From assembly GCF_016861975.1 (NCBI RefSeq), contig NZ_BOMB01000046.1:1-64000 (forward strand): 64,000 nt of DNA, in the 5' to 3' direction. Positions 807-64,000 of the stretch are shown here, piece after piece. This DNA is from Actinocatenispora rupis. GTDB taxonomy: Bacteria; Actinomycetota; Actinomycetes; Mycobacteriales; Micromonosporaceae. How positions within the stretch are numbered: position 1 is the first letter of the stretch; the number at the start of each line of letters is the position of its first letter. The notes beneath the pieces were generated by a model. It had not been told where the DNA came from and did not search any database. It was given only the letters and a program-made list of their open reading frames with translations. The position numbers were made by a program, and so were the translations under genes.

Positions 807-1303
807 CCGGCGCCGGTACGGCACCCGCGGCGGCGGTGGCGCTGCGCGAGATCGCCGGCGCCGTACCGGATCCGGAGCTGCGCGTGGTGTCGATCGCGGA
901 GCTGGGCATCCTGCGCGACGTGTCGACGGGTCCACAGGGGACGGTCGTGACGATCACCCCGACGTACTCGGGATGCCCGGCGCTGGCGACGATCGCGGCC
1001 GACGTACGGGACGCGCTGGCCGCCGCGGGGGCGCCGGACGCGGAGGTACGGGTGGCGCTGGACCCGCCGTGGAGTACGGACGACATCACCGCGGCGGGTC
1101 GCGCGAAGCTGGCCGGCGCGGGCATCGCGCCGCCCGGTCCGACCCGGCTGGCCGGACCGGTGGCGCTACCGCTCGCGGTACGCTGCCCGCGCTGCGGATC
1201 GGCGGAAACCGTTGAGCTGTCCCGGTTCTCGGCGACCCCGTGCACCGCGCTGTGGCGTTGCACGTCCTGCGCCGAACCGTTCGACCGGGTCAAGGAGCAC
1301 TGA
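800..1303 (+). CDS. paaD: 1,2-phenylacetyl-CoA epoxidase maturation subunit PaaD
   Basis: Accessory protein thought to help assemble or insert metal clusters in the PaaABCE epoxidase. The product has 167 residues: an N-terminal MIP18/DUF59-type domain (about residues 15-105, with GCPA near the middle) and a C-terminal zinc-ribbon-like segment with CPRC near residue 129 and CTSC near 154. ATG at 800 overlaps the paaC stop; GTG at 803 in the same frame is an equally possible start. The frame stays open further upstream, but that part is a shadow of paaC. It ends in an ATGA overlap with paaE, as expected for one operon. Confidence 0.93.
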   Translation: MVTGAGTAPAAAVALREIAGAVPDPELRVVSIAELGILRDVSTGPQGTVVTITPTYSGCPALATIAADVRDALAAAGAPDAEVRVALDPPWSTDDITAAGRAKLAGAGIAPPGPTRLAGPVALPLAVRCPRCGSAETVELSRFSATPCTALWRCTSCAEPFDRVKEH

Positions 1304-2406
1304 TGCCGACCGTGACCGTGCGCCGGCCGCAGCGGCGCCGCCCCGAGTTCCACAAGCTGCCGGTGACGGCGATCGACCGCCTCACCGACGACGCGTACGC
1401 GCTGACGTTCGGGGTGCCGGACGAGCTGCGCGAGACGTTCCGGTTCCGGGCCGGGCAGCACCTGACGTTGCGGCACGCGGACGGCGCCGACGTGCGCCGC
1501 TCGTACTCGATCTGCTCGACGCCGGCGGAGCTGGCCGAGACCGGCGCGCTGCGGGTCGGGGTGCGGCTGATCCCCGGCGGCGCCTTCTCCGCGTACGTCG
1601 CGGACGGGTTGGCGGAGGGCGACCGGATCGAGGTGATGCCGCCGCTCGGGCACTTCACCACCGACCTGGATCCGTTGCGCCGCAAGCACTACGCCGCGAT
1701 CGTCGCGGGCAGCGGGATCACCCCGGTGCTGTCCCTGGTCGCCACCGCGCTCGCCATCGAGCCGCACAGCCGATTTACCCTGCTGTACGGCAACCGTGAC
1801 TCGCGTTCGGTGATGTTCGCCGAGGAGCTGGCCGACCTCAAGGACCGGTACCCGGCGCGGCTGCACCTGGTGCACGTGCTGTCCCGGGAGCCGCAGGACG
1901 CCGAGCTGCTGTCCGGCCGGCTGGATCCGGACCGGTTGCGCCGCGTGCTTCCCGCGCTGGTACCACCGTCCACTGTGGACGAATGGTTCCTGTGCGGGCC
2001 GTACGGGATGGTCGTGGGGGCGCAGCACGTGCTCGCCGAGTCCGGGGTGGCCGACGGGGCGGTGCACACCGAGCTGTTCCACGTCGCCGAGGAGCCCCCG
2101 CCGCCGCCGTCCGCGCCGCCCGAGACCGGCGGCAGCGAGGTCACGATCCGGCTCGACGGGCGCGCCAGCACCTTCCGCATGCGGTACGACGAGCGGATCC
2201 TCGACCGGGCCATGGAGGTCCGCAGCGAGCTGCCGTACTCGTGCCGCGGCGGAGTCTGCTCCACCTGCCGCGCCCGGGTCGTCGACGGCGAGGTACGGAT
2301 GGCCCGCAACTTCGCGCTGGAGCCGGACGAGCTGGCCGCCGGGTACGTGCTGACCTGCCAGTCCAGTCCGGTCACCGAGCAGGTCACCGTCGACTACGAC
2401 GGCTGA
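1303..2406 (+). CDS. paaE: 1,2-phenylacetyl-CoA epoxidase reductase subunit PaaE
   Basis: NAD(P)H-dependent reductase that feeds electrons to the PaaA diiron centre. The 367-residue protein has a ferredoxin-reductase FAD domain (RSYSICS near residue 65, then GSGITPVLS for NAD(P)H binding) up to about residue 250. A C-terminal plant-type 2Fe-2S domain follows, with the cluster cysteines in SCRGGVCSTCR and TCQSS. The start ATG overlaps the paaD stop (ATGA). Two structured proline-rich linker stretches separate the domains. It is the last gene of the paa operon; a GC-rich imperfect hairpin near 2421-2455 may end the transcript. Confidence 0.95.
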   Translation: MPTVTVRRPQRRRPEFHKLPVTAIDRLTDDAYALTFGVPDELRETFRFRAGQHLTLRHADGADVRRSYSICSTPAELAETGALRVGVRLIPGGAFSAYVADGLAEGDRIEVMPPLGHFTTDLDPLRRKHYAAIVAGSGITPVLSLVATALAIEPHSRFTLLYGNRDSRSVMFAEELADLKDRYPARLHLVHVLSREPQDAELLSGRLDPDRLRRVLPALVPPSTVDEWFLCGPYGMVVGAQHVLAESGVADGAVHTELFHVAEEPPPPPSAPPETGGSEVTIRLDGRASTFRMRYDERILDRAMEVRSELPYSCRGGVCSTCRARVVDGEVRMARNFALEPDELAAGYVLTCQSSPVTEQVTVDYDG

Positions 2407-2475
2407 CCGGATCGTTCCGGGGGCCGGCCGGATCCGGGCTGGCCGGCGGCCCGTCGCGCGGGCGAGCATGGAGGC

Positions 2476-3060
2476 ATGACCGCAGCGACGATCGTGATCG
2501 ACGTACAGGAATCGTTCCGGACTCGGCCCCTGTGGGCGGCGAACTCCAACCCGGACATCGTGCCGAAGGTGAACCGGCTCGTGGCCGCCGCGCGCGACCG
2601 CGGCGACACCGTCGTCTGGGTGCTGCACACCGAGCCCGGCACCGGCGGCGCGTTCGACCCGGCCGAGGGGCACGTACGCCTGATGGCCGGGCTCGAACCG
2701 CTCGACGGCGAGCCGCTCCTCACCAAGACCTCGCACAACGCCTTCACCACGACCAACCTCCAGCAACTGCTGACCGCCCGCGGCGTACGGTCGCTGACGG
2801 TTGCCGGGATCCGTACCGAGCAGTGCTGCGAGACGACCGCCCGGCTCGCCTCCGACCTCGGGTACGACGTGACGTTCGCGATCGACGCGACCGCCACCAA
2901 CCCGATCGAGCACCCCGACGCGCCGCCCGGCCGTACCGTGGAGGAGATCCTGGCGGACCCGCGGACGCTGTCGACCGACGCGATCCTCACCCGCACCCGG
3001 TACGCGCTGGCCGGCCGCTTCGCCACCGTCGCCACCGTCGACGAACTGACCGGATCATGA
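2476..3060 (+). CDS. isochorismatase-family cysteine hydrolase
   Basis: Predicted cytoplasmic amidase/hydrolase of the isochorismatase (nicotinamidase-like) family, 194 residues. The catalytic triad is visible: D9 in VIDVQ, K84 in LTKTS and C117 in EQCCETTA. The substrate cannot be told from sequence; nicotinamide-like amides, carbamates and similar compounds are all possible. ATG 2476 follows GGAGG at 2470-2474, spaced too closely for a good Shine-Dalgarno; GAGCAT at 2464-2469 six bases before the ATG could instead be a leaderless -10. The gene ends in an ATGA overlap with a GlxA-type regulator, so the hydrolase and regulator are co-expressed. Confidence 0.88.
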   Translation: MTAATIVIDVQESFRTRPLWAANSNPDIVPKVNRLVAAARDRGDTVVWVLHTEPGTGGAFDPAEGHVRLMAGLEPLDGEPLLTKTSHNAFTTTNLQQLLTARGVRSLTVAGIRTEQCCETTARLASDLGYDVTFAIDATATNPIEHPDAPPGRTVEEILADPRTLSTDAILTRTRYALAGRFATVATVDELTGS

Positions 3061-3974
3061 CCACCGTCGCGTTCGTACTGGTGCCCGGCCTGCACCTGCT
3101 GGACCTGGCCGGGCCGGCGCAGGCGTTCTCCGCCGCCACCGACCTCGGCCACCCGTACGACCTGCGGTACGTGGCCGAGCAGCCGGACGTACCGACCGCG
3201 CAGGGCGTCACGCTGCACGCCGACCTGTCGTGGCCGGCGCTCGGCCCGGACGACCTGGTCCTCGTACCGGGCTGGCGGGCGTCGCTGCTGCGCGGCCCGA
3301 CCCCGATCGGTTCGGCGACGGCGCAACGGATCGCCGACCATCACGCCGCCGGCGGTACCGTCGCCAGCGTCTGCGCGGGTGCCGACGCGCTCGGCCGTGC
3401 GGGGCTGCTCGACGGCCGCCGGTGCACCACGCACCACGAGGTGCAGGAGGAGTTCGCCCGGCGGTACCCGCGGGCCACGGTGGTCCGCGACGTGCTCTAC
3501 GTCGTCGACGGCCGCGTCGTCACCTCCGCCGGCATCGCCAGCGGCATCGACCTGGCGCTGCACCTGATCGCCACCCGGCACGGCCCCGCGCTCGCCGCCC
3601 GCGTCGCCCGTTCCATGGTCGTGTACGCCCGGCGCAACGGGGACGCGCCGCAGGCCAGCGCGCTGCTGCGGCACCGCGCGCACGTGTCCGACTCGGTACA
3701 CCGGGCGCAGGACCTGATCGACGAGCGCTTCGCTGAACCGCTCCCGCTCGCCGATCTCGCCGCCAGGACCGGCGTCAGCGAGCGCACCCTGACCCGCCGG
3801 TTCACCGCCGCGACCGGCCTCACCCCGCTCCGGTACCAGCAGTCGTTGCGGGTGGAGCGCGCCCGGTACCTGATCGGGCAGGGCGCGAGCGTGGAGTCGG
3901 CGGCGCGCGCGGTGGGCTTCACGGACGCCCGCATGCTGCGGACGCTGCGCGGCCGTACGGACGAGACCGTCTGA
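3057..3974 (+). CDS. GlxA-family transcriptional regulator (DJ-1/PfpI plus AraC HTH)
   Basis: The 305-residue regulator joins an N-terminal DJ-1/PfpI (class I amidotransferase-like) sensor domain, about residues 4-165, to a C-terminal AraC/XylS double helix-turn-helix, about 215-300. The nucleophile-elbow motif SVCAGA is present, with the cysteine near residue 106. The HTH part shows the usual LADLAARTGVSERTLTRRF and VGFTDARMLR blocks. ATG 3057 overlaps the stop of the cysteine hydrolase, which suggests that hydrolase and its metabolite are linked to the regulator. The frame is open upstream, but only as a shadow of the neighbouring gene. Confidence 0.9.
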   Translation: MTTVAFVLVPGLHLLDLAGPAQAFSAATDLGHPYDLRYVAEQPDVPTAQGVTLHADLSWPALGPDDLVLVPGWRASLLRGPTPIGSATAQRIADHHAAGGTVASVCAGADALGRAGLLDGRRCTTHHEVQEEFARRYPRATVVRDVLYVVDGRVVTSAGIASGIDLALHLIATRHGPALAARVARSMVVYARRNGDAPQASALLRHRAHVSDSVHRAQDLIDERFAEPLPLADLAARTGVSERTLTRRFTAATGLTPLRYQQSLRVERARYLIGQGASVESAARAVGFTDARMLRTLRGRTDETV

Positions 3975-61990: not shown

Positions 61991-62072
61991 GGCGGGTTGC
62001 CCGAGTGGCCAAAGGGAGCGGACTGTAAATCCGTCGGCTTCGCCTACACAGGTTCGAATCCTGTACCCGCCA
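61991..62072 (+). tRNA. tRNA-Tyr (anticodon GTA)
   Basis: An 82-base class II tRNA: acceptor GGCGGGT/ACCCGCC, D-arm GCCCGAGTGGCC, anticodon GTA in CTGTAAA, a long variable arm, T-arm ACAGG-TTCGAATC-CTGT and discriminator A. CCA is not encoded. Confidence 0.95.
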
Positions 62073-62082
62073 CGCCAGGGTT

Positions 62083-62128
62083 GACGAAGGCCCCCGACCA
62101 GCAGCAATGCCGGTCGGGGGCCTTCGTC
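62083..62128 (+). terminator. 17-bp terminator after tRNA-Tyr
   Basis: GACGAAGGCCCCCGACC (62083-62099) pairs perfectly with GGTCGGGGGCCTTCGTC (62112-62128), loop of 12 bases. Confidence 0.85.
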
Positions 62129-62149
62129 GTGCCTGGCTCGCGGCGTGCC

Positions 62150-62236
62150 TCAGCCGATGCCCTGCCGGTCCACGAGCCCCAGCGTCGGGGCGAACCACAT
62201 GGTGTCGCGCAGACGTTCGCGCAGCGGCGAGACCTG
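62150..62236 (-). pseudogene. possible remnant of a DUF2254-like membrane gene
   Basis: A 28-codon frame bounded by TAG and TGA reads LRERLRDTMWFAPTLGLV in the middle, which recalls the N-terminal helix start of DUF2254-type membrane proteins. No start codon with a ribosome site and no continuation are present. Codon bias fits coding DNA. It may be a leftover of a lost gene beside the tRNA. Confidence 0.25.
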
Positions 62237-62738
62237 CTACCCGTCGTACGCATCGAACGGGCCGGTCGCGCGCCGTCGGCTCCGCGAGCGCCGGGTACGC
62301 AAGGCATGTCGCATTGGTGGACCGAGACCGGGCGTACGGTATCGGCAAGATCATGTCGCGCCGGGCGCCCACGGCCGGAAGATCGGGTGCAACGCGCTCG
62401 GGGCGCCGTGCGTGTGCTCGGGTGAGTCCACCGGTACGCGAGGGTTCGGCGGCGCAGAGGTAAACGGAGCGTGGTGCCCGGAGTACGGAAGGGATGGATC
62501 GCGCGATCGGGCCCGGCGAATGTCTGCCGGAGCCGAAGTGGGTGAAGCTGCGCCGATCGGATCATCCGGTCAGGTAACTTTCCCGGCAAACCGCCATCTA
62601 AGCCGCGACGTGCTCGAACGTTCGGGTGGAGACGCGCGGTGATCCCTTCTGTTGGCGTCGCGCTTGCGGCTAGCATCAGGGCCTGGCCGGTCGCCGGTTG
62701 CGACCCGATCCCGATCGTGAGTGGTTCAGGAGAGTCTC
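62237..62738. other. gene-free stretch with the promoter region of the small peptide gene
   Basis: No supported gene. Frames here lack consistent codon bias. TAGCAT at 62671-62676 is a likely -10 for the peptide gene, giving a leader of about 56 bases; no clear -35. A palindrome CGAACGTTCG is at 62615-62624. Several conserved-looking single-strand motifs were checked for known riboswitches without a match. Confidence 0.4.
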
Positions 62739-62870
62739 ATGCGTAAGCTCAAGACGTCCCGTTGGGCGGTACGCGTGGCCGCGCTGGCTGCTGCTGCAAC
62801 CGCTGGCGCACTCGTGTTCGCGTCCAACGCCGCCGCCGCGGACTACGGCTGGACGCTGGTCGGTCGCTGA
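62739..62870 (+). CDS. 43-residue secreted peptide precursor
   Basis: Perfect Shine-Dalgarno CAGGAGAG lies seven bases before ATG 62739. The product is almost all signal peptide: basic n-region (MRKLKTSRWAVR), hydrophobic core (about residues 13-28) and an Ala-rich cleavage site (NAAAA). Cleavage would leave about nine residues, DYGWTLVGR. This is not a known lipoprotein or bacteriocin pattern. The next gene encodes a membrane signalling protein, so a signal-peptide/pheromone role is a possible inference. Not in the list of recognised families. Confidence 0.6.
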   Translation: MRKLKTSRWAVRVAALAAAATAGALVFASNAAAADYGWTLVGR

Positions 62871-62890
62871 CCGTCCCGGTGCATCACCAC

Positions 62891-62934
62891 GTCTGACCCG
62901 TCAGACCAGACGGTGCCGCACTCACCCCGGTGAG
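62891..62934 (+). promoter_or_regulatory. mutually exclusive hairpins behind the peptide gene
   Basis: GTCTGA-CCCG-TCAGAC (62891-62906) competes with CGTCTG (62890-62895) pairing CAGACG (62907-62912); a third palindrome CTCACC-CC-GGTGAG follows (62921-62934). Together they could form a terminator or attenuator between the peptide and the sensor gene. Confidence 0.4.
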
Positions 62935-63019
62935 TCCGTCGAGAGGCAATGTCCTTCGAGTGGCAACGCCCTTCGACAGGCAATGTCCGTCGAGGAGCCA
63001 ACGTCCGTCGAGAGGCAAC
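62934..63019 (+). repeat. five tandem 17-bp repeats before the sensor gene
   Basis: Units GTCCGTCGAGAGGCAAT, GTCCTTCGAGTGGCAAC, GCCCTTCGACAGGCAAT, GTCCGTCGAGGAGCCAAC (18 bp) and GTCCGTCGAGAGGCAAC lie head to tail. Each contains a purine-rich, Shine-Dalgarno-like core. They end ten bases before the sensor gene start. Confidence 0.85.
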
Positions 63020-63029
63020 GGATGCGCGC

Positions 63030-64000
63030 ATGAGTCCTGCGACGCCTGTCTCTGGTCGCGCGGCGATGTACTCCTGGCTCATCACGTCAGGACTCATCGT
63101 TCTGACCGTGGCGTTGACCGTACCCACCGCGGGCGTGAGCCACTTCCGGTTCGGCCCGTGGTGGCTGTTCGCCGCGCTCGCGGCGCTGTTCCTGGCGGGC
63201 CAGGCGATCAACCTCCATCTGGAGGTCGGTCGCCAGAGCATGACGGTGGCGCTGGTCGAGATCCCGCTGCTGCTGTCCCTCTTCCTGCTCCACCCCCTCG
63301 GCGTACTCGCGGCGCGCGTGCTCGCCGGCGCCGTCGTGTACCTGTGGCGTACCAAGGACGTCACCAAGTACTTCTTCAACGTCTTCCTGTTCGCGGCCGC
63401 GACCGCCGTGGCGAACGCGGTGGTCGTCGCGTTCGGGCCGCTGTCGCCGACGCACCCGCAGAGCTGGGTCGTGGCGCTCTCCGCGATCCTGATGGCCGAG
63501 CTGGTGACGTACCTCGGGGTGGCGTTGGTGATCAGCGTCGTCCAGGGCGGGCTCACCACCCGCGGCCTGCTGCGCAACGCGCAACCGATGGCGGCCGGTC
63601 TGGTCTGCGCCGTCATCGGCCTGATCATGTTGCTGGCCATCCAGGTCACGCTCTGGTCGCTGCTCCTGCTGCTGGGGCTCACGGTGGCCGTGGCGCTGGC
63701 GTACCGGGCGTATGCGCGGTTCCTCAGCGAGCACCAGAAACTCGACCAGATGTACGAACTGACCCGCGCGGTGCGGCGGGCGAGTTCCGAGGGCGAGCTG
63801 GCCGACATCCTGCTCGCCCGCGTACGCGAGATGCTCCGCGCCGAGTACGCGACGCTCTGGTTGCCCGCCTCCGGTCGGTACCCGGAGGTGTTGTTGACGG
63901 CGAAGGAGGGCGTGCGCGGCCTGCTGGACAAGGCGCCCGCGCCGCACAGCCTGCGCGCCGAGGTGATCGAGGAGGGCGCGACCCGGGCGGTCGGGCCGAA
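63030..64000 (+). CDS. membrane-bound GAF-domain signalling protein (partial)
   Basis: Reading frame open to the window end, at least 323 codons. Residues about 14-215 contain roughly seven hydrophobic helices (MYSWLITSGLIVLTVALT first). Then a coiled-coil-like linker (RFLSEHQKLDQMYELTRAVRRA) and the start of a GAF-like domain (ILLARVREMLRAEYATLWLPAS). This layout in Micromonosporaceae usually leads to GGDEF/EAL cyclic-di-GMP domains or a histidine kinase, which the window does not show. ATG 63030 overlaps a three-codon frame (MRA at 63022) by ATGA; that frame has GAGAGG seven bases upstream. ATG 63066 is an alternative start. Confidence 0.75.
   Translation, partial: MSPATPVSGRAAMYSWLITSGLIVLTVALTVPTAGVSHFRFGPWWLFAALAALFLAGQAINLHLEVGRQSMTVALVEIPLLLSLFLLHPLGVLAARVLAGAVVYLWRTKDVTKYFFNVFLFAAATAVANAVVVAFGPLSPTHPQSWVVALSAILMAELVTYLGVALVISVVQGGLTTRGLLRNAQPMAAGLVCAVIGLIMLLAIQVTLWSLLLLLGLTVAVALAYRAYARFLSEHQKLDQMYELTRAVRRASSEGELADILLARVREMLRAEYATLWLPASGRYPEVLLTAKEGVRGLLDKAPAPHSLRAEVIEEGATRAVGP

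Follow-up and report, generated by a model that had tools for sequence, protein, structure and literature searches.

A small gene with a conserved tail motif beside a predicted c-di-GMP sensor in Micromonosporaceae: a candidate peptide-signalling precursor

The peptide gene and its neighbourhood in Actinocatenispora rupis

The window analysed here is a stretch of 64,000 nucleotides of the Actinocatenispora rupis genome (contig NZ_BOMB01000046.1, positions 1 to 64,000), near the end of which a very small gene lies directly before the gene of a large membrane protein, hereafter the sensor. The features of this region are:

62671..62676, forward strand: candidate -10 element TAGCAT, 62 nt upstream of the peptide ATG
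62728..62732, forward strand: Shine-Dalgarno sequence AGGAG, 6 nt from the ATG
62739..62870, forward strand: peptide precursor ORF, 43 amino acids and stop, with homologues upstream of the sensor in relatives (dN/dS 0.36)
62739..62840, forward strand: signal-peptide-like N-terminus, 34 amino acids, read from the translation, with an inferred cleavage point
62841..62867, forward strand: tail DYGWTLVGR with the motif D-Y-G-W-T, conserved in comparison with relatives
63030..64000, forward strand: gene of the sensor, with membrane domain, GAF, GGDEF and EAL, truncated at the end of the window; it ends at contig position 65552
63138..63656, forward strand: membrane domain modelled with an S-component fold, approximately residues 37-209 of the sensor (AlphaFold2 model, VIA-align Z 10.4-14.3)

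The 43-codon gene with its ribosome site, on which the original prediction was built, was confirmed, and its translation is MRKLKTSRWAVRVAALAAAATAGALVFASNAAAADYGWTLVGR followed by the stop codon. An alternative GTG start at 62721 would yield 49 amino acids, but the ATG is preferred because the ribosome site fits it. The N-terminus has a basic start, an Ala-rich hydrophobic core and the residues AAAA preceding D, where a cut would release exactly DYGWTLVGR; the N-terminus is thus signal-peptide-like, and the exact nonapeptide is a putative product. The peptide of the window and those of five relatives matched no Pfam model above the cut-off, and six peptides matched none in NCBIfam; sub-threshold matches (Pfam E 0.029 and 0.12, NCBIfam E 0.078 and 0.09) belonged to unrelated families and were discarded.

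The sensor gene (1131-3653 on the extracted locus L054) starts 159 nt after the peptide stop codon. This start at 63030 was assigned by homology of starts, another in-frame ATG being located at 62949, and the ribosome site that precedes the sensor in the window is a poor one. The adjoining membrane protein with a GAF domain had been recognised from the outset; its full content proved to be that of a GAF-GGDEF-EAL protein (Pfam, full sensor: GGDEF E 9.4e-32, EAL E 1.2e-73, GAF also matched), with both catalytic domains of c-di-GMP turnover, whose activity is predicted from sequence. The GGDEF motif is intact; in the EAL domain, which is normal in other respects, the signature is ECL. The RxxD inhibitory site, which can precede GGDEF, was not found ahead of the GGDEF motif of the sensor.

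A consensus scan of 62000-64000 returned neither a sigma-70-like promoter nor a terminator. In the 80 named loci of the family (see below), a DNA motif, TGTGGCAC(C/G)ATC, is strongly conserved ahead of the peptide gene and is probably part of the promoter. Its core TGTGGCAC is present in 65 of the 80 upstream regions, approximately 50-63 nt before the peptide start (in one letter shuffle, the best 8-mer reached 6), and GGCACCATC, beginning 50-63 nt before the ATG, in 40 of them. We read the TAGCAT of the window as the equivalent of this motif, whose position suggests that transcription could start just before the peptide gene and run into the sensor.

Between the peptide and sensor genes of the window, a 17-bp direct repeat (GTCCGTCGAGAGGCAAC) occurs in five copies (62934-63020), and it is not apparent upstream of the sensor in three relatives of the genus. 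A tRNA-Tyr gene is located at 61991-62073, about 1 kb before the sensor, and is followed directly by a self-complementary stretch (62074-62137, found as a reverse-strand self match) that is probably the tRNA-Tyr terminator hairpin and is absent from the list of the terminator scan. In three relatives (L044, L045, L046) the distance from tRNA-Tyr to sensor is 7 to 38 kb, and two of these have additional copies of the tRNA-Tyr 3' part in between (one and two copies), so that the region looks, as far as sequence can tell, like an integration site for islands. That the peptide ORF is cargo of such an island was rejected, as the small ORF stays at the sensor despite the 7-38 kb separation.

Conservation of the gene pair in Micromonosporaceae

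Direct sequence searches had suggested an orphan peptide. The 43-residue peptide gave weak, signal-peptide-like matches outside its own genome among 200 family genomes (best E 0.0019), and a pattern spelling out the tail exactly had two hits among 354 genomes, both in this genus; it passed over the window itself, whose ACG codon it did not permit. This picture was overturned by following the sensor gene instead. The first 323 residues of the sensor were matched in 158 of 160 Micromonosporaceae genomes, and the upstream DNA was examined for 110 of these 158 with a procedure that required a start codon, a Shine-Dalgarno-like box, a limited length and an end near the sensor start, and that took the most hydrophobic candidate.

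Where the sensor start could be placed by tblastn, such an ORF was found at 73 of 74 loci, and all 73 tails contain Trp. With looser rules for ribosome site and distance, the 16 unplaced loci and the one miss (L140) all yielded an ORF (17/17, 16 with Trp), as did 20 more distant loci of the family (20/20; Trp in eight, a different motif in 12). The linkage postulated in the original prediction holds in relatives: in every one of the 110 genomes examined the ORF immediately precedes the sensor, with Trp in the tail of 97. The 13 genomes without Trp are the 13 examined out of the 19 of a single genus, g12, which keeps the architecture in 13 of 13 and carries motifs of the form S-[GSN]-[DE]-[IVL] in one to seven copies (e.g., SSGEVA seven times, GSGEIS six times, NSGDVA four times). 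In a set of 80 named loci, which overlaps the 110 genomes, all 80 have the ORF and all 80 ORFs contain Trp, and a hydrophobic score of at least 1.6 at the N-terminus is reached in 79 of these homologues; this signal-peptide-likeness arises partly by construction, because the procedure favours hydrophobic candidates, which does not apply to the motif and its repeats. At one locus, that of Micromonospora craterilacus (L213:2501-3496), the stretch matched by the sensor contains an in-frame stop codon, which may stem from a gap in the alignment or mean that the gene is broken.

The supposed mature part is conserved within the genus as well, in the forms DYGWT, DYGWN and DLTWT. Three other Actinocatenispora genomes, A. 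comari among them, encode sensors 62-65% identical to that of the window, each directly preceded by a 20-residue ORF with a similar ribosome site (MRMHVASAHRSDYGWNIIGR, MRMHVASAHRTDYGWNILGR and MRHHVASARRSDLTWTVIGR), in which the tail is retained and the signal peptide is missing. The MRMHVASAHRSDYGWNIIGR and MRMHVASAHRTDYGWNILGR ORFs differ by five synonymous and two replacement codon changes, and compared to MRHHVASARRSDLTWTVIGR they show two synonymous and six replacement changes, and six and eight, respectively. As translated, these ORFs do not fit simple Sec secretion in those genomes and are the main observation that speaks against it. Of the proposed pair of exported peptide and membrane sensor, tail conservation and linkage are thus upheld, while the export signal fails in these three members of the genus.

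Motif, repeats and selection

The common tail motif can be written as D-hydrophobic-x-W-x. Its strict form D-[VFYIL]-x-W is matched at 44 of the 80 named loci. Among 122 Trp residues, position -3 is occupied by D (63), G (21), S (15) or E (10), position -2 mostly by V, F, Y, I or L, and position +1 mostly by T, G, N or Q; the last Trp is the penultimate residue at 31 of the 80 loci. More than one Trp follows residue 20 in 26 of the 80, the extra Trp not being a motif copy in some. Multi-copy precursors include those of Micromonospora sp. 15K316 (DYSWG six times) and M. parastrephiae (DIVWQ/H four times), as well as others with three copies of GVEWG, DFTWG or SVDWT. Within a precursor, the five-residue stretches share on average 2.77 of four flanking residues (64 pairs), compared to 0.74 between precursors (7196 pairs). 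Identical copies often differ in codons; since copies were chosen by motif, their lack of replacement changes exists by construction.

Fourteen independent close pairs of family homologues gave dN 0.087, dS 0.24 and dN/dS 0.36, and the ORF is therefore constrained as a protein. The motif is not under more constraint than the rest of the ORF (dN/dS 0.43 for the motif core vs 0.36). When the procedure and a motif filter were applied at 161 starts of long ORFs in the window and the 80 loci, all 65 hits were these peptides, and this strict filter was passed by 72 of the 80 loci. A chance hydrophobic ORF was rejected on the basis of this control and of dN/dS. The genome of A. rupis contains 15 GGDEF matches, six with a gene start outside the fetched flank and one of the remaining nine being the sensor itself, with its peptide beyond the locus; upstream of the eight other GGDEF genes with a visible start no such ORF occurs (0/8).

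Once the motif's covariation with the remainder of the sensor was accounted for, none with the membrane domain was detected (partial rank correlation 0.024 over 79 pairs; 161 of 500 permutations were as high). The highest-scoring single columns (208, 221 and 156) were selected out of many, and no claim is made for them. This absence may reflect short, noisy motifs or a sensor that does not read the variable positions.

Trp-repeat tails of proteases beyond the family

When 198 genomes of the phylum were searched with a profile of the sensor N-terminus, 32 gave a match, the genome of the window being one of them, and 29 other, distant actinobacterial loci were examined. In 18 of these, the neighbour is an ORF on the same strand that ends within approximately 310 nt of the sensor start and has a tail built of Trp repeats, e.g., (GASWT)n, (SSSWS)n or (GTRWT)n; all ten of those scanned matched Peptidase_S8. 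At L151, from another family of the window's class, a signal-peptide-like start leads into 18 perfect GASLT copies immediately before the sensor homologue, and these repeats are a third motif class, without Trp. At L171, a short hydrophobic ORF ends in STWR and is possibly a chance occurrence, and in nine of the 29 loci nothing recognisable was seen in the flank.

Searching from the protease side produced matches in 52 of 198 genomes, and the closest 30 loci were read. As the protease runs off the locus in three, 27 were counted, of which 25 have at least nine Trp in the last 90 residues. A sensor homologue is present at 23 of the 27, two of them on the opposite strand, a rate biased upwards because the query was itself sensor-linked and the closest hits were read; the loci are moreover not independent, many being the same as in the sensor-profile search.

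Fold of the sensor membrane domain

An AlphaFold2 model was built on 34 aligned sensors and covers less than the full-length sensor (mean pLDDT 75, pTM 0.65). In VIA-align, the top 23 rows are all ECF S components with Z 10.4-14.3, the next row having 7.0; values below approximately 13 can mean a common helical-bundle arrangement, and four rows exceed 13. Foldseek returned a best E of 3.6e-3 with probability 1.00, and none below E 0.001. Sequences of solved structures gave one chance-level match (E 0.16) to the sensor profile. As modelled, the membrane domain of the sensor would have the ECF S-component fold, of the vitamin-binding type, and ligands are taken up from the outer side by the known relatives of such components. 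An extra N-terminal, H0-like helix (residues 10-36) precedes the matched range 37-209. R68, in the loop region after helix 44-59, is invariant in the 34 sensors, among which no conserved N-x-R, the motif placed between helices 1 and 2 in 5TMR-type receptors, was seen.

This fold is also that of the 5TMR receptor domains, for which the accessible part of one paper describes an S-component fold with a helix H0, fusion to GAF, GGDEF, EAL and other domains, and proposed ligand binding in the outward cavity (Partipilo and Slotboom, 2024; PMC11109136). The experimental example given in that part is the pyruvate sensor BtsS, and no peptide ligand is named there. The full sensor did not match Pfam 5TMR_LYT (PF07694) at E up to 1, only EAL, GGDEF and GAF models being listed, and it is therefore not filed as a member of that family. 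No 5TMR receptor structure was seen in the VIA-align list, an absence that is not evidence.

A candidate ligand for the sensor, and its alternatives

What these loci share is a short motif, single or repeated and in many cases at the extreme end, carried by a protein that is probably exported, together with a GGDEF-EAL protein of predicted S-component fold; a ligand and its receptor would be the simplest account. It appears reasonably probable that the small gene encodes a precursor from which an exported peptide is made as ligand of the adjoining sensor. The peptide would be exported via Sec and then cut by signal peptidase, multi-copy precursors perhaps being cut by further proteases, and the motif would dock in the cavity on the outer side of the membrane domain, where docking could shift c-di-GMP synthesis or breakdown. 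The signal might be shared between cells or might report on the producer's own envelope or export, so that the pheromone originally proposed is one of several readings. An extension to the whole phylum is tentative, and we rate its chance as a little short of even: a polymorphic system in which short exported motifs, on one-copy or multi-copy precursors in Micromonosporaceae and on protease-borne Trp-repeat tails elsewhere, would be read by S-component-fold receptors with direct control of c-di-GMP.

Alternatively, the peptide might not be released at all, its hydrophobic N-terminus serving as membrane anchor and its tail as a tethered regulator in cis or a small subunit of the sensor. Many precursors, e.g., those of Micromonospora, lack an obvious AxA site near the hydrophobic stretch, and the partner is always encoded next door; but elsewhere the sites are textbook-like (ASPAAA before DSVDWT in L180). 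Release or display, rather than a one-to-one subunit, also agrees better with the up to six or seven motif copies of a precursor and with the presence of motifs on S8 proteases of secreted type. We regard this alternative as unlikely.

It is improbable that the ORF is a leader frame that acts like a SecM-like secretion monitor, its translation or stalling controlling how the sensor is translated or targeted to the membrane. Such a role would agree with the position of a small ORF, conserved at its end, right ahead of the gene of a membrane protein, with the tail that persists without signal peptide in three Actinocatenispora genomes and with the poor ribosome site of the window's sensor. This alternative, already considered in the original prediction, is nevertheless disfavoured because the motif is repeated within one precursor, up to six or seven times, and distant homologues lie beside Trp-repeat protease tails. 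Two to seven occurrences per ORF are incompatible with a stalling motif; the motif also varies among genera and, in distant relatives, terminates a full S8 protease.

We likewise give little credence to the motif being a structural tail that binds, for example, wall polymers, with a sensor that monitors the envelope without binding it: the Trp repeats of the long protease tails could anchor enzymes to polymers and motif and membrane domain do not covary, but in Micromonosporaceae the exported part consists of little beyond the motif and the sensor is its constant partner, and the S-component fold suits the binding of a small ligand from outside (PMC11109136, section 8).

The arrangement seen in the relatives examined suggests a hitherto undescribed form of peptide signalling among soil actinobacteria. 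In the open-access literature we found no description of the peptides, of the Trp-repeat tails or of a link to c-di-GMP sensors, and the word 'peptide' is absent from the text of a paper on c-di-GMP enzymes of Streptomyces (PMC6205966), according to whose abstract the development of filamentous actinobacteria, Streptomyces for example, is governed by the messenger c-di-GMP. In Actinoplanes, a GGDEF-EAL gene is located in a maltase operon, a different neighbourhood (PMC6828939).

For many GGDEF/EAL proteins the input signal is not known. An S-component-fold c-di-GMP sensor with a genetically linked candidate ligand makes the question of input directly testable, and the Trp class, the S-[GSN]-[DE]-[IVL] class, the GASLT repeats and the protease tails represent natural variants for swapping. 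If true, the proposal would provide a peptide route into c-di-GMP for actinobacteria.

Comparison with known systems

As proposed, the system would be a case of peptide signalling via an S-component-fold receptor with c-di-GMP output. On the receptor side, the sensor resembles the 5TMR/LytS receptors in its modelled S-component fold, extra N-terminal helix and cytoplasmic GAF, GGDEF or EAL domains, but differs from them in a membrane part without Pfam match, 5TMR_LYT included. On the side of the small gene, leaders of the SecM type likewise are short, signal-peptide-like ORFs whose end is conserved and which precede the gene of a membrane protein. Instead of the single stalling motif at the ORF end that characterises SecM, however, several species have two to seven copies, and here the motif varies among genera and ends S8 proteases in distant relatives.

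The repetition of near-identical short motifs in one probably secreted precursor recalls yeast alpha-factor, a multi-copy pheromone precursor, although the present system is bacterial, no processing sites were identified in it and its signalling role is putative. Among bacteria, parallels are offered by the peptide pheromone-receptor pairs of Firmicutes, ComC/ComD and Agr, which act through histidine kinases. They are alike in the small, here probably exported, peptide encoded beside a putative membrane receptor and in the species-variability of that peptide, whereas here the predicted output is c-di-GMP metabolism rather than a histidine kinase and the short motif is often present in multiple copies.
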